NCBI RefSeq assembly: GCF_000716445.1
Contig: NZ_JNWK01000024.1
Span: 53,392-117,391, forward strand
Length of the DNA stretch: 64,000 bases
From: Streptomyces wedmorensis
Lineage (GTDB): Bacteria > Actinomycetota > Actinomycetes > Streptomycetales > Streptomycetaceae
Direction: 5' to 3'
The position numbers and the translations under genes were made by a program. Shown here in pieces: positions 12,667 through 59,043 of the stretch. The stretch's first letter is position 1. Every line of letters begins with the position of its first letter. The notes under the pieces were generated by a model. That model was given only the letters and a program-made list of their open reading frames with translations, had not been told where the DNA came from and did not search any database.

Positions 12667-13341
12667 CTACTGGCCGCCGCCCGGGCGCACCAGACCGCTC
12701 TCGTACGCGTACACCGCGGCCTGCACCCGGTCGCGCAGCCCCAGCTTCGTCAGCACATGGCCCACGTGCGTCTTGACGGTCGTCTCGCTGACGAACAGGT
12801 CCGCGGCGATCTCCGCGTTCGACAGCCCACGCGCCACCAGCTTCAGCACCTCGACCTCGCGATCGGTCAGGGTGCTCAGCGTCTCCGGCATCCGCTCCTC
12901 GCCCGTGGGCAGGTGCGCCGAGTACTTGTCGAGCAGCCTGCGCGTGATCGACGGCGCCAGCATCGCCTCGCCCGCCGCCACCACCCGGATCGCCTGCACC
13001 AGCTCGTTCGCCGGAGCGTCCTTCAGGAGGAAGCCGCTCGCACCGGCCCGCAGCGCCTCCACCACGTACTCGTCCAGATCGAACGTGGTCAGCACGAGCA
13101 CCTTCGCCGGACCGTCCCGGCCCGGACCCGTGATCTGCCGGGTCGCCTCCACCCCGTCCATCCGCGGCATCCGGATGTCCATCAGCACCACGTCGGGCTG
13201 GAGCGCGCGCACCTGCTCCTGCGCCTGGAGACCGTCCCCGGCCTCACCCACCACCGCGATGTCCTGCTCCGCCTCCAGAATCATCCGGAAGCCGGTGCGC
13301 AGCAGCGGCTGGTCGTCCACCAAGAGGACGCGGATCGTCAC
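12667..13341 (-). CDS. NarL/LuxR-type response regulator, orphan
   Basis: Two-component response regulator of 224 residues. The receiver domain has the acidic pair D9-D10, phospho-acceptor D55 in VVLMDIRMPRMDG, and the conserved Thr and Lys in VLTTFD and GASGFLLKDAP. The C-terminal LuxR helix-turn-helix reads LTDREVEVLKLVARGLSNAEIAADLFVSETTVKTHV. GTG 13341 has AAGGAG five bases upstream, deciding the start. No histidine kinase gene is adjacent, so the partner is unknown. Convergent with the lipoprotein pair; 64 bases downstream of the exonuclease gene on the same strand. Confidence 0.92.
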   Translation of the reverse strand: MTIRVLLVDDQPLLRTGFRMILEAEQDIAVVGEAGDGLQAQEQVRALQPDVVLMDIRMPRMDGVEATRQITGPGRDGPAKVLVLTTFDLDEYVVEALRAGASGFLLKDAPANELVQAIRVVAAGEAMLAPSITRRLLDKYSAHLPTGEERMPETLSTLTDREVEVLKLVARGLSNAEIAADLFVSETTVKTHVGHVLTKLGLRDRVQAAVYAYESGLVRPGGGQ

Positions 13342-13405
13342 AAGGGCTCCTTCACGGGGCGGGCCGGACACACGACGGCGACCCGGCTCACGGTGCGGGC
13401 AAGGC

Positions 13406-14308
13406 TCACGGCGCGGGCGGGGCCGGGTCCATTCTGCCCTGCCCGGATTCGCCGGACTCCGCCGGGCGCGCGGAAACGATCTTCAGCGGATAGACCGGGG
13501 GAGTCCCCCCGAACTCCGGACAGACCGCCTGGTGGTCGCACCAGCCGCACAGCTTCGTCGGCCTCGGCCGCCAGTCGCCCGTCTCGGTCGCCAGCCGGAT
13601 CGCGTCCCACAGCGCGAGCAGCTTCCGCTCCACCCGCAGCAGGTCCGCCTCCACCGGGTCGTACGTCAGCACGTCCCCGCTGCCCAGATAGACCAGCTGG
13701 AGCCGGCGCGGCAGCACCCGCCGCAGCCGCCAGACCACCAGCGCGTAGAACGTCATCTGGAACAGCGCCCCGTCGCGGTACTCGGGCCGGGGCGCCTTCC
13801 CCGTCTTGTAGTCCACGATCCGCACGTCACCCGAGGGCGCCACGTCGATCCGGTCGATCACACCGCGCAGCCGCAGCCCCGAATCCAGCTCCGTCTCCAC
13901 GAACAGCTCGCGCTCGGCCGGCTCCAGACGCGACGGGTCCTCCAGCGTGAACCACCGCTCGACCAGCCGCTCCGCCTCGCCCAGCCACCCCGCGAGCCGC
14001 TCCCCGTCCGGATCCTCCGCGAACAGCTCGCCCAGCTCCGGCTTCGACTCCAGCAGCCGGTCCCACTGCCCGGGCACCATCGCCTTCGCCCGCGGCGCCG
14101 TCCGCTCCACCGCCGGATCGTCGAAGAGCCGCTCGAGCACCGCGTGCACCAGCGTGCCCCGGGTCGCCGCCGGACTCGGCTTCTCCGGCAGCCGGTCGAT
14201 CACCCGGAACCGGTACAGCAGCGGACACTGCATGAAATCGCTCGCCCGCGACGGCGACAACGACATGGGCGCCCGGGGCTCCGCCGGCACCTGCTCGCTC
14301 GTACTCAT
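13406..14308 (-). CDS. RecB-family PD-(D/E)XK exonuclease with iron-sulfur motif
   Basis: Single-domain nuclease of 300 residues in the Cas4/RecB/AddB group, expected to process DNA ends during repair. RGTLVHAVLERLF holds the conserved His, and GVIDRIDV then VRIVDYKTGK give the catalytic Asp and DxK. GALFQMTFYAL is the QxxxY helix. One Cys near the N-terminus (DFMQCPLLYRFR) and three near the C-terminus (CGWCDHQAVC) form the pattern that holds a 4Fe-4S cluster in this family. The ATG at 14306-14308 has no ribosome site. Instead TAGGGT lies seven bases upstream, suggesting a leaderless mRNA from a DNA-damage-type promoter. Confidence 0.9.
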   Translation of the reverse strand: MSTSEQVPAEPRAPMSLSPSRASDFMQCPLLYRFRVIDRLPEKPSPAATRGTLVHAVLERLFDDPAVERTAPRAKAMVPGQWDRLLESKPELGELFAEDPDGERLAGWLGEAERLVERWFTLEDPSRLEPAERELFVETELDSGLRLRGVIDRIDVAPSGDVRIVDYKTGKAPRPEYRDGALFQMTFYALVVWRLRRVLPRRLQLVYLGSGDVLTYDPVEADLLRVERKLLALWDAIRLATETGDWRPRPTKLCGWCDHQAVCPEFGGTPPVYPLKIVSARPAESGESGQGRMDPAPPAP

Positions 14309-14315
14309 GACGAAG

Positions 14316-14338
14316 ACCCTACGACCCGCCACCGACAT
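14316..14338 (-). promoter_or_regulatory. PafBC-type DNA-damage promoter of the RecB-family exonuclease
   Basis: On the minus strand the sequence reads ATGTCGGTG-N8-TAGGGT, then seven bases and the ATG. The LexA-independent damage promoters activated by PafBC in mycobacteria have consensus TTGTCRGTG-N8-TANNNT. The match is 8 of 9 in the upper box, exact in spacing and complete in the -10. The position predicts a transcript starting at the ATG. pafB and pafC are in this window at 29-31 kb. Confidence 0.7.
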
Positions 14339-14431
14339 CGCGCGGAATACCATCGACCCGGGACCCCGTCGCACTGCATGATCGAACCGTGACGCACCGA
14401 CGCGGGTCACACCACGCGACGAAAGGAACCC

Positions 14432-15622
14432 GTGAACCAGGACGAGCCCAAGCCGCAGCGGACCGAGGAGCCCGGCGGCGGGATCCTCATGGGCCGCCCC
14501 TTCGGCGTGCCCGTCTACGTCGCCCCCAGCTGGTTCCTCGTCGCCGCCCTCATCACCTGGGTCTTCGGCGACCAGATCGAACGCGTCCTGCCCGAACTCG
14601 GCGCCGCCCGCTACCTGGTCTCCCTCTTCTTCGCCGTCGCCTTCTACGCCTCCGTGCTCGTCCACGAACTGGCCCACACCATCGCCGCGCTCCGCTTCAA
14701 GCTCCCGGTGCGCCGCATCCAGCTCCAGTTCTTCGGCGGCGTCTCCGAGATCGAGAAGGAGACCGAGACCCCCGGCCGCGAGTTCGTCCTCGCCTTCGTG
14801 GGCCCCCTCCTCTCCCTCGTCCTCTCCGGCGTGTTCTACCTCTCCCTGTACGCCGTCGAGCCCGGCACCGTCCCCGGCGTCCTCCTCGCCGGCCTGATGA
14901 TCTCCAACCTGATCGTCGCCGCCTTCAACCTGCTCCCCGGCCTCCCGCTCGACGGCGGCCGGATGCTCCGCGCCGTCGTCTGGAAGATCACCGGCAAGCC
15001 CATGAGCGGCACCGTCGCCGCCGCCTGGGTCGGCCGCGCCCTCGCCGTCCTCGTCCTGGTCGGCCTGCCCCTGCTCACCCGCACCGGCCTCCTCGGCAAC
15101 TCCACGGACGACATCAGCGGCTTCACCACCGTCACCGACGCGCTGCTCGCCGCGATCCTCGCCGCCATCATCTGGACCGGCGCCGGCAACAGCCTCCGCG
15201 TGGCCCGGCTCCGCGAGCACCTCCCCGAACTCCGCGCCCGCGTCCTCACCCGCCGCGCCATCCCGGTCGAGAGCACGACCCCCCTCTCGGAGGCCCTCCG
15301 CCGCGCCAACGAGGCCGGCGCGCGCGCCCTCGTGATCGTCGACGGCAACGGCGACCCCACCGGCATCGTCCGGGAGGCCGCCATCGCCGCCGTCCCCCAG
15401 CACCGCCGCCCCTGGGTCGCCGTCAGCAGCCTCGCCCAGGACATCACCGAAGGCATGCGGGTCCCCGCCGAACTCACCGGCCAGCCCCTCCTCGACCACC
15501 TGCGCGCCACCCCGGCCACCGAGTACCTCGTCGTCGAGGAGAGCGGCGAGATCTACGGCGTCCTCGCCACCACCGACGTCGAGCGCGCCTTCGTCAAGGC
15601 CATGGCACGACCGTCCTCGTAA
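14432..15622 (+). CDS. Site-2-type M50 membrane metalloprotease with CBS domains
   Basis: Integral membrane zinc protease of 396 residues. The zinc motif VLVHELAHT (H78-E79-H82) lies in the membrane-embedded region and the third ligand is in LLPGLPLDGGRML. Several hydrophobic segments follow, and the last 130 residues form a CBS pair (IPVESTTPLSEALRRANEAGARALVIVD onward) that probably senses an adenine nucleotide. GTG 14432 has AAAGGA five bases upstream. This is the SpoIVFB/Rip3-like group, which cuts membrane-bound regulators. It ends 19 bases before trmI. Confidence 0.9.
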   Translation: MNQDEPKPQRTEEPGGGILMGRPFGVPVYVAPSWFLVAALITWVFGDQIERVLPELGAARYLVSLFFAVAFYASVLVHELAHTIAALRFKLPVRRIQLQFFGGVSEIEKETETPGREFVLAFVGPLLSLVLSGVFYLSLYAVEPGTVPGVLLAGLMISNLIVAAFNLLPGLPLDGGRMLRAVVWKITGKPMSGTVAAAWVGRALAVLVLVGLPLLTRTGLLGNSTDDISGFTTVTDALLAAILAAIIWTGAGNSLRVARLREHLPELRARVLTRRAIPVESTTPLSEALRRANEAGARALVIVDGNGDPTGIVREAAIAAVPQHRRPWVAVSSLAQDITEGMRVPAELTGQPLLDHLRATPATEYLVVEESGEIYGVLATTDVERAFVKAMARPSS

Positions 15623-29036: not shown

Positions 29037-29080
29037 CGGACGTCCGAGAAGTGGATCCGCGGAAGAGGTGCAGGGCTTCG

Positions 29081-30037
29081 ATGGCGATTGCCAAGTCCGA
29101 GCGGCTGATGAATCTCGCGCTGTGCCTGCTCGGGACGCGCCGACCGTTGAGCAAGCGGGAACTCCGCGGCTCCATCGAGGCCTACCTCGAAGCCTCCGCA
29201 GACGACGCCTTCAACCGCATGTTCGAGCGCGACAAGGACGACCTGCGCGAGCTCGGCCTCGTCATCGAGACCGTCGAGAACCTGGAGGGCGAGACCGGCT
29301 ACCTCGCCCGCCGCGACTCCAACCGGCTGCCTCCCATCACCCTCGACGCCGAGGAGGCCGCCGCGCTCGGCCTCGCCGCCAAGGTGTGGCAGCAGGCCCG
29401 TCTCGCCGGGGCCGCCAGCGGCGCCCTCCAGAAGCTCCGCGCCGCCGGCATGCCCGAGGCGGAGGACTCGTACGAGACGCAGCCCAGCGCCCTCGAACCC
29501 CGCATCCCGGTCCACGAGGCGGCCTTCGAACCGCTCATGCTGGCCTGCCGCGACCGCCGCCCGGTCGTCTTCGACTACCGCAAGGCCAACGCCGCCCGCC
29601 CCGAGTCCCGCCAGGTCGAGCCCTGGACCCTCGAATGCTGGCGCGGCCACTGGTACCTCGCCGGCTGGGACCGCGACCGCGGCGCCGAGCGCGTCTTCCG
29701 CCTCTCCCGGATCACCGGCAAGGTCCGCTCCCGGGCCGGCGCCTTCACCGCGCCCGTGCCCGACGTCGTCACCGTCCGGGAGACCGTGGAGAGCTGGGCG
29801 GGCGAGACCGCGACCCGCACCGCCAGGATCCGGCTGCGCGGCGGCTGCGGCTACCCGCTGCGCGCCCGCGCCCTGTCCGTGCGGGAGGGCGCCGACGGCT
29901 GGGACGAGCTGGAGATCCCGTACGGCCACGGGCTCGACGCCTGGCTGGTCGAGTTCGGCCCCGACGTCGTCGTCCGGGAACCCGCCGATCTGCGGGCCGA
30001 TGTGATGGACCGGCTGCGCGCCGTGGCCAAGGGCTGA
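29081..30037 (+). CDS. pafB: PafB, WYL-domain transcriptional activator subunit
   Basis: DNA-binding regulator of 318 residues. The N-terminal winged helix (AIAKSERLMNLALCLLGTRRPLSKRELR...NRMFERDKDDLRELGL) is followed by a WYL domain (RPVVFDYRKAN...RQVEPWTLECWRGHWYLAGWDRDRGAERVFRLSRI) and a C-terminal WCX region. In mycobacteria PafB and PafC form a heterodimer that activates LexA-independent DNA-repair promoters after damage. ATG 29081 with GAGGTG upstream gives the normal N-terminus. pafC follows after 16 bases, in one operon. Confidence 0.95.
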   Translation: MAIAKSERLMNLALCLLGTRRPLSKRELRGSIEAYLEASADDAFNRMFERDKDDLRELGLVIETVENLEGETGYLARRDSNRLPPITLDAEEAAALGLAAKVWQQARLAGAASGALQKLRAAGMPEAEDSYETQPSALEPRIPVHEAAFEPLMLACRDRRPVVFDYRKANAARPESRQVEPWTLECWRGHWYLAGWDRDRGAERVFRLSRITGKVRSRAGAFTAPVPDVVTVRETVESWAGETATRTARIRLRGGCGYPLRARALSVREGADGWDELEIPYGHGLDAWLVEFGPDVVVREPADLRADVMDRLRAVAKG

Positions 30038-30053
30038 GGGGGAGACGAACCGC

Positions 30054-31007
30054 ATGGCTGCCAACGCGATCGACCAGACGAGGCGGATGCTCTCCCTCGT
30101 CACCTATCTCCGCGAGCGCCCCGGCGCCCACGTCGCCGACGTCGCGCGCGCCTTCGGGATCACCGAGGACGAGCTGATCTCCGACCTGGACGTGCTGCCC
30201 ATGTGCGGCACCAGCTTCCGCGGCGGCGACCTCCTCGACATCGACACCGACGGCGACCGCATCTGGTGGCACAACCCGGACGACGTCGCCGCACCGCTGC
30301 GGCTCGCCGCGGACGAGGCGACCGCCCTCCTGGTCGCCGCCCGCGCCGTCGCCACCCTGCCGGGGCTCCGCGAGAGCGACCGGGAGGCCCTGCTCCGCGC
30401 CACCGCCAAGCTGGAGGCCGCCGCGGGCGAGGCCGCCGGGGCCAGCTCCCGGCTCTCGGTCACCTTCGAGTCCGAGGGCGGCGTCTTCGCCGAGGTCGAC
30501 CGGGCCATCTCCGAACGCCGGCGCCTCTGGGTCCGCTACTACTCGCCCGCCCGCGACGAGCTCACCGAGCGCGAGGTCGACCCGATCCGGCTCTTCGCCG
30601 TCGGCCACACCTACATGGAGGCGTGGTGCCGCCTCTCCGAGGCGCGCCGCACCTTCCGCCTCGACCGCGTCGTCGAGATCCGCATCCTCGACGAGCACGC
30701 CGCGCCGCCGGAGCTGGAGCTGCGCGACCTGTCCGAGGGCCTCGTGCAGCCGTCCGCCGACGACCCCGAGGTCGTGGTCGAGGTGGGGCCCGGCGGCCGC
30801 TGGGTCGCCGAGTACTACCCGCACGACCGGGCCGACGAGCTCCCGGACGGCGGACTGCGGATCACGCTGCGGACGCCGGACCCCGCCTCGCTGCGCCGGC
30901 TAGCCCTCCGACTGGGCAGCGACGGGCGGATCGTCGCACCGGCCGAGCTCGCCGACAGCGCCAGGACGGCGGCCGCCGCCGCGCTCGCCGCGTACGAGGG
31001 GCTGTGA
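30054..31007 (+). CDS. pafC: PafC, WYL-domain transcriptional activator subunit
   Basis: Partner of PafB, 317 residues, same architecture: N-terminal winged helix (DQTRRMLSLVTYLRERPGAHVADVARAFGITEDELISDLDVL), WYL domain (RRLWVRYYSPARDELTEREVDPIRLFAVGHTYMEAWCRLSEARRTFRLDRV) and a C-terminal WCX region. The WYL domain probably binds nucleic acid or another damage signal. GGGGGAG precedes the ATG. Despite the proteasome-accessory-factor name, the role in actinobacteria is regulation of DNA repair. Candidate target promoters in this window lie at 14.3, 33.2 and 42.5 kb. Confidence 0.95.
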   Translation: MAANAIDQTRRMLSLVTYLRERPGAHVADVARAFGITEDELISDLDVLPMCGTSFRGGDLLDIDTDGDRIWWHNPDDVAAPLRLAADEATALLVAARAVATLPGLRESDREALLRATAKLEAAAGEAAGASSRLSVTFESEGGVFAEVDRAISERRRLWVRYYSPARDELTEREVDPIRLFAVGHTYMEAWCRLSEARRTFRLDRVVEIRILDEHAAPPELELRDLSEGLVQPSADDPEVVVEVGPGGRWVAEYYPHDRADELPDGGLRITLRTPDPASLRRLALRLGSDGRIVAPAELADSARTAAAAALAAYEGL

Positions 31008-49372: not shown

Positions 49373-51007
49373 TCAGAGGTCCGCCGCGCGGAACGTCACC
49401 CGGCCGTCCACGACCGTGAGGCGGACGGGGACGTCCGGAAGGTCCGTCGACGGCGTCGTCAGCGGGTCGGCGGCGAGGACCGTCAGGTCGGCGCGGTAGC
49501 CGGGAACGAGGCGGCCCGCCTCGTGCTCCTCACCGGCGGCGTAGGCCGGCGCCGTGGTCATGCCGCGCAGCGCCTCAAGGGCGGTGAGAGCCTGCTCGGG
49601 CCCGTGCGGCGCCTGGGCGAGGTCGCGGCTGGGGCGACGGTGGCGGGCGCCGGCCATCACGCCGAGCGGCGGGAAGGGGGCGATCGGCCAGTCCGAGCCG
49701 AGGACCACGGTGGCGCCGGAGTCCGCGAGGTCGCGGCAGCGCCACGCGCGCGAGGCGCGCTCCTCGCCGAGGCGGCGCGACCAGTTGTCGGTGTGGTCGG
49801 CTCGGGTGAAGTCGCAGCAGTGGGTGGGCTGCATCGACGCGAGGACGCCGAGTTCGGCGAAGCGGCGCAGGGTGTCGTCCGGCACCGTCTCGATGTGCTC
49901 GACCCGGTGCCGCACCCCGTCGGGGGCCCCGCCCGATGCCTGGGCCTTGGCGACGGAGTCGAGGACGTGCCGGACGGCCGCGTCGCCGATGGCGTGCGTC
50001 GCGGTGGGCACGCCCGCCCGGTGCAGCTCGCCCACGATGTGGGTGTACGCGGCGGGGTCCGGCCAGAACGCGTGCGTCGACTCGCCGTGGCAGTCGGGGC
50101 GTTCCAGCCAAGCCGTGCCGTTGTCGACGGTCCCGTCCATGAAGAGCTTCACGCCCGCGACCCGCCACAGCGACCCGCCCGTGCCCTGCTGCTCGATCAG
50201 GCCGCGCACGCCGTCCGCGTCGGTGCCCGGCTGGCACCAGGGCGCGACCCGCAGCCGCAGCGGCAGGTCGCCGGCCGCGTCGAGGTCCCCGTACAGCGCG
50301 AGGCTCTCGCCGTTCGCGTCCATCGCGTGCCCGCCGGTCAGTCCGGCCGCCGCCATGGAGCGCAGCGCCGCGGCGAGCCGCTCGCGGCTCTCCTCGCGCG
50401 TCGGGCGCGGCGCGACCCGCTCGACGAGCTCGCAGGCGGCGTCCTCCTGGAGGAGGCCCGTCGGGCGCCCCGCCGCGTCGCAGACGACCTCGGCCGACGC
50501 CTGGGCGAAAGTGCGCGGTCCGTCGACCCCGGCGAGTTCGAGCGCGCGGCGGCTGGCCAGCGCCGAGTGGGCGTCGAAGAGCAGCAGGAAGGCGGGGATC
50601 CCGTCCAGTACGGCGTCGAACGGGGCGATCCCCATCGGCAGGTCGCCGAAGACGTTCGGGTCGAGGCCCCAGCCGAACAGCCACTCGCCGCGCCCGAGGG
50701 ACCGGGCCTCCCGCGCGAGCGCCGACCGTACGTCGTCGAGGTCGGCGCAGTACGACAGGTCGAGTCCGTGCGTCAGTTCCGCGCCCGAGACCGGGTGCAC
50801 GTGCCCGTCGACGAGCCCCGGCGTGACCACGGCCCCCTTGAGGTCGACGACCGTCGTGGCCGGACCGGCCAGTGCCCGGATCTCACGGTCGTCGCCCAGG
50901 GCCGCGATCCGGCCGTCGTCGGAGACGGCGAGCGCCGTCTCCGGCAGGAAAGCCCCCGTACCGGGGTCGAGCAGACGGGCGGAGAGCAGGACGAGTCGGG
51001 TGCGCAC
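49373..51007 (-). CDS. Amidohydrolase-family 3 metal-dependent hydrolase (YtcJ-like)
   Basis: Metal hydrolase of 544 residues. The N-terminal beta-sandwich is followed by GAVVTPGLVDGHVHPVSG (HxH metal ligands), and later come GVKLFMDGTVD, THAIGDAAV, the HRVEHIE motif and GSDWPIAPFPPLGVM. The C-terminal ADLTVLAADPL closes the sandwich. Relatives include N-substituted formamide deformylase, so a C-N or amide bond is the likely target. GTG 51005-51007 has GGAG five bases upstream. It lies 170 bases after tetR on the same strand with a 27-bp tandem repeat between. Probably part of the TetR regulon. Confidence 0.88.
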   Translation of the reverse strand: MRTRLVLLSARLLDPGTGAFLPETALAVSDDGRIAALGDDREIRALAGPATTVVDLKGAVVTPGLVDGHVHPVSGAELTHGLDLSYCADLDDVRSALAREARSLGRGEWLFGWGLDPNVFGDLPMGIAPFDAVLDGIPAFLLLFDAHSALASRRALELAGVDGPRTFAQASAEVVCDAAGRPTGLLQEDAACELVERVAPRPTREESRERLAAALRSMAAAGLTGGHAMDANGESLALYGDLDAAGDLPLRLRVAPWCQPGTDADGVRGLIEQQGTGGSLWRVAGVKLFMDGTVDNGTAWLERPDCHGESTHAFWPDPAAYTHIVGELHRAGVPTATHAIGDAAVRHVLDSVAKAQASGGAPDGVRHRVEHIETVPDDTLRRFAELGVLASMQPTHCCDFTRADHTDNWSRRLGEERASRAWRCRDLADSGATVVLGSDWPIAPFPPLGVMAGARHRRPSRDLAQAPHGPEQALTALEALRGMTTAPAYAAGEEHEAGRLVPGYRADLTVLAADPLTTPSTDLPDVPVRLTVVDGRVTFRAADL

Positions 51008-57678: not shown

Positions 57679-59043
57679 GTGGCAGTCCGCACACCCCCGC
57701 TCACCGTCGAGGAGCTGCGCGCCCTCGTCGCGAGCGGCGAGATCGACACCGTCGTCCTGGCCTTCCCCGACATGCAGGGACGGCTCCAGGGCAAGCGGTT
57801 CGCCGCACCGTTCTTCCTGGACGAGGTCCTCGGCCACGGCACCGAGGGCTGCAACTATCTTCTGGCAGTCGACACCGAGATGAACACCGTCGACGGCTAC
57901 GAGATGTCCTCCTGGGACCGCGGCTACGGCGACTTCGCGATGCACCCCGACCTCACCACCCTCCGCCGGCTGCCCTGGAACGAGGCCACCGCGATGGTGA
58001 CGGCCGACCTCGCCTGGGGCGACGGCACCCCGGTCGTCGCCGCGCCCCGCCAGATCCTCCGCCGCCAGCTGGACCGCCTCGCCGAGCTCGGTCTCACCGC
58101 CCACGTCGGCACGGAACTCGAGTTCATCGTCTTCCGGGACAGCTACGAGCAGGCCTGGGACGCGAACTACCGCGACCTCACCCCCGCCAACCAGTACAAC
58201 ATCGACTACTCCGTCCTGGGCACCGGACGCATCGAGCCCCTGCTGCGCCGCATCCGCAACGAGATGACCGGCGCCGGACTCACCGTGGAATCCGCCAAGG
58301 GCGAGTGCAACCCCGGCCAGCACGAGATCGCCTTCAAGTACGACGAGGCCCTCGTCACCTGCGACCAGCACGCCGTCTACAAGACGGGCGCCAAGGAGAT
58401 CGCCGCCCAGGAGGGCTACTCGCTCACCTTCATGGCGAAGTACAACGAGCGCGAGGGCAACTCCTGCCACATCCACCTCTCCCTCCAGAACGCGGCCGGC
58501 GAGAACGTGATGGCCGGCGACGACGCGCACGGCATGTCCGAGACCATGCGGCACTTCCTAGCCGGACAACTCGCCGCCCTCCGCGACTTCTCCCTCCTCT
58601 ACGCCCCCAACATCAACTCCTACAAGCGGTTCCAGCCCGGCTCCTTCGCGCCCACCGCAGTCGCCTGGGGCCACGACAACCGCACCTGCTCCCTCCGGAT
58701 CGTCGGGCACGGCCGCTCCACCCGCTTCGAGAACCGCCTCCCCGGCGGCGACGTCAACCCGTACCTCGCCGTCGCCGGCCTGATCGCCGCCGGCCTGTAC
58801 GGCATCGAGCAGCGCCTCGAACTGCCCCCGCCCTGCACCGGCAACGCGTACACCGCCGAGTACGCGCACGTCCCCACCACCCTGCGCGAGGCCGCCGAAC
58901 TCTGGGAGACCAGCGAGATCGCCAAGGCCGCCTTCGGCGCCGAGGTCGTCGCCCACTACCGCAACATGGCCCGCGTCGAACTCGACGCCTACGACGCCGC
59001 GGTGACCGACTGGGAACTGCGCCGCTCCTTCGAACGCCACTGA
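57679..59043 (+). CDS. glnA4: Glutamine synthetase-like gamma-glutamylethanolamide synthetase
   Basis: GS-fold ligase of 454 residues, close to what I know of S. coelicolor GlnA4, which joins glutamate and ethanolamine using ATP. Typical blocks: VVLAFPDMQGRLQGKRF, GTELEFIVF (metal Glu), VESAKGECNPGQHEIAF, the ATP segment TFMAKYNEREGNSCHIHLSL, and FQPGSFAPTAVAWGHDNRTCSLRI. Residues of true GlnA that hold ammonium are replaced, as in the glutamylpolyamine group. GTG 57679 has AAGGAGGAG upstream. First gene of the operon with an aldehyde dehydrogenase and an SDR. Confidence 0.92.
   Translation: MAVRTPPLTVEELRALVASGEIDTVVLAFPDMQGRLQGKRFAAPFFLDEVLGHGTEGCNYLLAVDTEMNTVDGYEMSSWDRGYGDFAMHPDLTTLRRLPWNEATAMVTADLAWGDGTPVVAAPRQILRRQLDRLAELGLTAHVGTELEFIVFRDSYEQAWDANYRDLTPANQYNIDYSVLGTGRIEPLLRRIRNEMTGAGLTVESAKGECNPGQHEIAFKYDEALVTCDQHAVYKTGAKEIAAQEGYSLTFMAKYNEREGNSCHIHLSLQNAAGENVMAGDDAHGMSETMRHFLAGQLAALRDFSLLYAPNINSYKRFQPGSFAPTAVAWGHDNRTCSLRIVGHGRSTRFENRLPGGDVNPYLAVAGLIAAGLYGIEQRLELPPPCTGNAYTAEYAHVPTTLREAAELWETSEIAKAAFGAEVVAHYRNMARVELDAYDAAVTDWELRRSFERH

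Follow-up and report, generated by a model that had tools for sequence, protein, structure and literature searches.

We analysed a 64,000-nucleotide (nt) window of the Streptomyces wedmorensis genome (contig NZ_JNWK01000024.1), in which a recB-like gene, here recB, is preceded on the minus strand by a site resembling the damage promoters that mycobacteria serve with the activators PafB and PafC. The consensus of the mycobacterial PafBC-dependent promoters is tTGTCRgtg-8nt-TannnT (PMC5656591). The recB site agrees with it at eight of nine positions of the upper box and at 11 of the 12 specified positions overall, with exact spacing. An earlier note on this DNA had called the motif near-perfect, with a full -10 element, and had placed it seven bases before the ATG; both statements were confirmed on the minus strand, where CTTCGTC lies between TAGGGT and the start codon (Table 1).

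The sole mismatch in the upper box is its first base, an A instead of T. This position is a C in 70% of the 96 orthologous Streptomyces recB sites that agree at 10 or more of the 12 positions; as these sites mostly carry C there, we do not regard the mismatch as a defect. The spacer is likewise well conserved at Streptomyces recB, with the consensus GCGGGCCG. With the A of the start codon assumed as +1, TGTCGGTG spans -29 to -22 and TAGGGT spans -13 to -8, and the position of the box would fit the '-26 motif' read by PafB. No sigma-70 consensus promoter was found between 13200 and 14600, which we count in favour of a PafBC-type promoter. The exact SOS box core, GAAC-N4-GTTC, searched as that pattern only, is absent near recB and has a single match in the window, at 58114-58125.

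Table 1. Promoter site, recB gene and other genes of interest in the window (positions count from its first base)
Feature	Position	Strand	Remarks
Upper box ATGTCGGTG	14338-14330	minus	PafBC-type; read from sequence
8-base spacer GCGGGTCG	14329-14322	minus	read from sequence
-10 element TAGGGT	14321-14316	minus	read from sequence
CTTCGTC	14315-14309	minus	7 nt between -10 and ATG
recB ATG start codon	14308-14306	minus	7 nt past -10; putative +1 of a leaderless mRNA
recB-like gene	13406-14308	minus	300-amino-acid stand-alone PD-(D/E)XK nuclease; PF12705, E 4.4e-40
LuxR-type response regulator	12667-13371	minus	34 nt downstream of recB; start codon provisional
M50 membrane protease with CBS domain	14432-15622	plus	divergent; common intergenic region with recB
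pafB (WYL + WCX)	29051-30037	plus	candidate activator
pafC (HTH_PafC + WYL + WCX)	30054-31007	plus	candidate activator

The recB product is probably an active, stand-alone RecB-family nuclease with a predicted iron-sulphur cluster, since both the catalytic residues (H55, D152, D166-Y-K168, Q184 and Y188) and four cysteines (Cys28, Cys254, Cys257 and Cys263, in the arrangement C...C-x2-C-x5-C) are invariant in all 93 aligned RecB sequences. The alignment comprises the window protein, 21 of 82 orthologs from outside Streptomyces and 71 of 80 from named Streptomyces loci. The earlier note had likewise called it a stand-alone Fe-S nuclease of this family. By sequence, its closest solved relatives are helicase chains in the structures 6ppu and 7sjr, with E values down to 5.4e-6; we take these to be the mycobacterial AdnAB motor nuclease. 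AddB, AddA, Cas4 and DruK models also gave profile matches, which for the NCBIfam models fell under the curated cut-offs. The window nuclease has the RecB-family PD-(D/E)XK core in common with the nuclease domains of AdnA and AdnB, with AddB and with Cas4; unlike them, it stands alone in 300 residues and has no helicase. Its counterpart in M. tuberculosis is presumably Rv2119. The obvious guess would be that the nuclease trims ends or removes flaps during repair.

The genome holds a further copy of the RecB family (G000:C80:36552-37454; L121, L130), 75% identical to the window protein. It has one TGA within the match and no PafBC-type site in the 350 nt upstream.

The motif in the genome and across Streptomyces

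A genome-wide scan of the kind proposed in the earlier note came out in favour of its reading, with the motif far above its reversed control. The exact core, TGTCRGTG-N8-TANNNT, occurs at 41 sites in the S. wedmorensis genome, against 2 for the control, and the 23-mer, with one mismatch allowed, at 84 sites (20 of them perfect), against 8. Within the window, 53 matches carry up to three mismatches, where 19.75 are expected; only two carry at most one, namely the recB site and 49785-49807, whose mismatch lies in the -10 element. Downstream of the 41 core sites, 18 ATGs stand 6-9 nt past the -10 (13 of them at 7 nt), over a background of 0.39 on average at each other offset up to 59. Such a piling up of start codons at one distance is the mark of promoters whose transcripts begin at the start codon.

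The 41 core sites lead into 40 distinct reading frames, 14 of which are repair or replication genes. These encode RecA, UvrB, an O6-methylguanine methyltransferase, a uracil-glycosylase family protein, a UvrD-type helicase, a protein with a UvrB-interaction domain (Mfd-like), a RadA-like ATPase, RuvC, the beta clamp of DNA polymerase III, DnaX, a DEAD-box helicase (DinG-like), an AlkZ-like glycosylase, a protein with a RecD2 HHH domain and the recB nuclease itself. For the proteins called Mfd-, RadA- and DinG-like, the Pfam hits are less specific and the label is our interpretation. Downstream frames were picked by a codon-composition script, and repair functions were assigned from Pfam matches together with reading of the sequences. 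These gene identities concern the S. wedmorensis genome.

Across the genus, every one of the 101 Streptomyces genomes scanned has more exact core sites than control sites (17-85 against 0-3). The same holds for all 11 genomes reached via named loci (39-78 sites against 0-3), which include S. flavochromogenes, S. narbonensis, S. exfoliatus and S. zaomyceticus; in these four, which are among the closest named relatives by RecB identity, the motif is plainly in excess. We take the close relatives scanned to be members of the S. venezuelae clade.

The site is also fixed in place before recB. The 101 genomes gave 98 usable upstream regions, G079 and G008 yielding no ortholog and G050 meeting a contig end; the second S. 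wedmorensis copy was left aside. In 96 of these regions at least 10 of the 12 positions agree, and in the other two 9 of 12, at the same place. A script put the ATG 7 or 8 nt past the -10 in 97 of the 98, and the distance is 7 nt in the remaining one; the G071 region has a 9/12 site 7 nt before its ATG. At 80 of 80 named Streptomyces loci (the best 80 of 580, with S. venezuelae not among them), TGTCRG-N10-TANNNT is followed by ATG or GTG at 6-8 nt. The named loci and the 98 regions overlap in some genomes.

The recB promoter across the class

Beyond Streptomyces, we drew 108 genomes from the class, 91 of which gave a RecB match at 1e-25; removal of seven Streptomyces and of the partial hits in G145 and G105 left 82 orthologs from 31 families. 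In 48 of the 82, an in-frame start follows an exact TGTCRG-N10-TANNNT at a distance of 6-8 nt, and the number rises to 67 with at most one mismatch and to 71 with at most two. At least one exact site was found in 22 of the 31 families, and all six members of one family (f4) have the site. Distances from site to start are mostly 6 nt (19 cases) and 7 nt (26 cases). With gaps from 5 to 15 tried, no ortholog carries the exact motif at any gap other than 10. Permuted boxes gave 0.50 exact cases on average, with a maximum of 45 that presumably stems from a permutation near-identical to the motif; the controls by gap and by distance are the cleaner ones.

Given its conservation across these orthologs, the recB promoter appears to be ancestral to the class and to have been lost in some lineages. 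A site is missing or beyond recognition in three of four f5 members, three of six f25 members, the single f34 member and three f17/g34 cases. Three sites in f11 read TGTCAC-N10-TANNNT, a variant that is reported for M. tuberculosis (PMC8151990).

Genome-wide, at least one core site was found in 231 of 246 genomes of the class. Two f19 genomes, G268 and G248, have the exact core at 198 and 118 places, and the control has none in either. Most of the f19 sites listed (L346-L375) read TGTCRGTGCCCGCCCGTAGGGT, and 28 compared copies share GGG and further G/C-rich sequence behind it. These sites form a dispersed repeat, and the counts there therefore do not give the size of a regulon.

We also considered co-occurrence of the motif with PafC as a test of PafBC dependence. 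It tests little, because PF19187 matches 237 of the 246 genomes. Six of the nine genomes without a match are less than 90% complete, and seven have few sites: 1 and 0 in f29 (control 1 and 0), 0, 1, 2 and 0 in f5 (control 1 each) and 1 in G167 (control 0). The opposite cases are G157 (78% complete; 13 sites against 0) and G338 (81%; 10 against 0), both of which have a WYL-type match by another search. The f29 family was dropped as a PafC-free negative, since G128 has two neighbouring WYL frames; the other f29 genome, G176, has one WYL match.

Reading of the site and rival explanations

Judged by its sequence, the site is very probably a PafBC-dependent (RecA-NDp) promoter of the recB nuclease gene, with PafB at -26 and a leaderless, damage-inducible mRNA as its product. 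We infer PafBC dependence and induction from the class of the motif, and the leaderless mRNA from the geometry. Upon DNA damage, single-stranded DNA would activate PafBC. With TGTCGGTG contacted by PafB near -26 and sigma region 4 held by PafC, the housekeeping RNA polymerase would start on the eighth base past TAGGGT, which is the A of the start codon. The resulting leaderless recB mRNA might also carry the response regulator gene. In M. smegmatis, PafBC activated by single-stranded DNA sits between promoter DNA and domain 4 of sigma-A, with the -26 motif occupied by PafB and sigma by PafC (PMC11804915).

Membership of recB in a Streptomyces PafBC damage regulon, which the earlier note had suggested, gains support from the association of the motif with repair genes, from its excess in 101 of 101 genomes and from the conservation of the recB site in fixed geometry. 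The earlier note had also located pafB and pafC some 15 kb away; the start of pafB lies 14.7 kb from the recB site, and WYL domains were recognised in both proteins and HTH_PafC in PafC. As far as sequence can tell, the promoter is real, conserved and of a known kind, with strong agreement to the motif, and recB is apparently an ancestral member of a known regulon.

Several observations weigh against this reading. Among the 40 frames of the S. wedmorensis genome, seven belong to other families (ribosomal protein S6, DUF4132, a GNAT enzyme, DUF4253, TerD, WGR and DUF1877) and ten have no family match in Pfam at 1e-5; the Pfam scan covered 30 frames and recB, with nine left out (L151, L153, L157, L159, L160, L163, L164, L166 and L167). 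Eleven of the 82 orthologs outside Streptomyces have no site with up to two mismatches at 6-8 nt, G128 among them having one at 5 nt and one region being partly masked. The three f17/g34 genomes (G136, G168 and G194) lack the upper box at recB and keep a -10 element 6-7 nt before the ATG. All three have HTH_PafC matches, and the window PafC matches both of the two that were searched; their genome-wide core sites are few (2-6), and a changed binding specificity of PafBC is possible there. In the two f29 genomes, neither HTH_PafC nor the window PafC found a PafC match, and recB still has TGTCGG-N10-TANNNT 5-6 nt before its ATG; a diverged PafBC may have been overlooked. Core counts outside Streptomyces are mostly lower, several lineages being at control level, and 15 of the 246 genomes have no core site. 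The near-universal PF19187 matches make co-occurrence a weak test. Finally, a 2022 study of S. venezuelae states that an initial search suggested the M. smegmatis PafBC motif not to be conserved, and leaves the matter open (PMC9380542). Our counts in close relatives, among which S. venezuelae itself was not scanned by name, do not support non-conservation.

It is improbable that the promoter is damage-linked but read, alone or together with PafBC, by another activator such as ClgR or a different WYL regulator. The genome has seven matches to HTH_PafC, and therefore related regulators exist; ClgR is reported to recognise the region of the recA P1 promoter in M. smegmatis, as told in PMC5656591, which is a further point against PafBC as sole reader. 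Against such an activator stand the M. smegmatis structure, in which PafB occupies the -26 motif of promoters of this type (PMC11804915), the presence of pafBC in the recB locus and a geometry that fits PafBC.

Very improbable, in our judgement, is a constitutive housekeeping promoter whose transcript is leaderless, whose upper part is kept for other reasons and whose recB gene is not damage-inducible. A lone -10 element near an ATG may suffice for a leaderless promoter, and the three f17/g34 genomes retain just that; against this, the box occurs with an exact 10-nt gap in 48 of 82 orthologs and 22 of 31 families, never exactly at another gap from 5 to 15, and repair genes of the S. wedmorensis genome have the same box in front of them. 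A chance match in a GC-rich genome, for which only the commonness of loose matches in the window (53) could speak, has next to no probability and is untenable, because the site keeps its position before recB in 98 of 98 Streptomyces regions and in other families as well, and the core stands at 41 against 2 genome-wide.

A PafBC-dependent recB promoter allows a bolder proposal, which we regard as a long shot: that the Rv2119-type nuclease is an ancestral core PafBC effector throughout Actinomycetes, leaderless for early translation, which would feed back on PafBC by making, or at a later stage removing, the activating single-stranded DNA through end trimming.

Related systems and neighbouring genes

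The window site and the mycobacterial RecA-NDp/PafBC promoters are alike in box, spacing, -10 element, the repair genes downstream and the location of pafBC in a Pup-proteasome locus; they differ in the Streptomyces host and in the first box base, which at recB is mostly C. Promoters of this type are already known in Streptomyces. The recA promoter of S. rimosus reads TTGTCAGTGGC-N6-TAGggT, and SIGffRid yielded a 67-gene set in S. coelicolor; the accessible account names neither recB nor PafBC, and the 67-gene list may include recB (PMC2375139). The S. coelicolor macrodomain gene SCO6735 has a RecA-NDp promoter and is inducible by ultraviolet light; it is a different gene from recB, and a PafBC test is absent from the available parts of the accounts (PMC5087735, PMC9411070). 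In M. tuberculosis, the recB-like exonuclease gene rv2119 is overexpressed in a mitomycin-treated delta-recA strain, without attribution to PafBC in the text available (PMC8151990), and a table in PMC2587704 sets it beside a RecB-family exonuclease of Kineococcus; in the same portions, neither account gives the site, leaderless geometry or class-wide conservation described here for recB. As the promoter type and the overexpression of rv2119 had been reported before, the novelty of the recB promoter needs qualifying.

In our searches of the open-licence PMC literature, the papers listed showed no Streptomyces PafBC regulon, no test of PafBC control and no naming of recB as a member; Gamulin 2004, Mueller 2018 or supplements may list the gene or its mycobacterial counterpart. 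The 2022 S. venezuelae study left the RecA/LexA-independent damage response of Streptomyces undecided (PMC9380542), a question that is now directly testable with a short target list. A damage switch known from mycobacteria, placed before a Streptomyces nuclease gene, suggests the same response in Streptomyces, and it draws attention to a nuclease that has been little studied and is a candidate, conserved over a wide range, for membership in that response.

The response regulator gene downstream is possibly co-transcribed with recB. A response-regulator DDQ motif starts 24-289 nt (median 30) past the recB stop codon on the same strand at 80 of 80 named Streptomyces loci, in a test that enforced placement downstream of recB. 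The regulator could be damage-induced via the recB promoter. On the other side of the site, the M50 protease gene is followed by a TrmI-like gene and then by the Pup-proteasome locus with pafB and pafC. Between the recB site and the M50 gene, at 14339-14431, several Streptomyces relatives share stretches such as GATCATGCAGTG and TCGATGGTAT, which probably serve the divergent M50 gene as its promoter.
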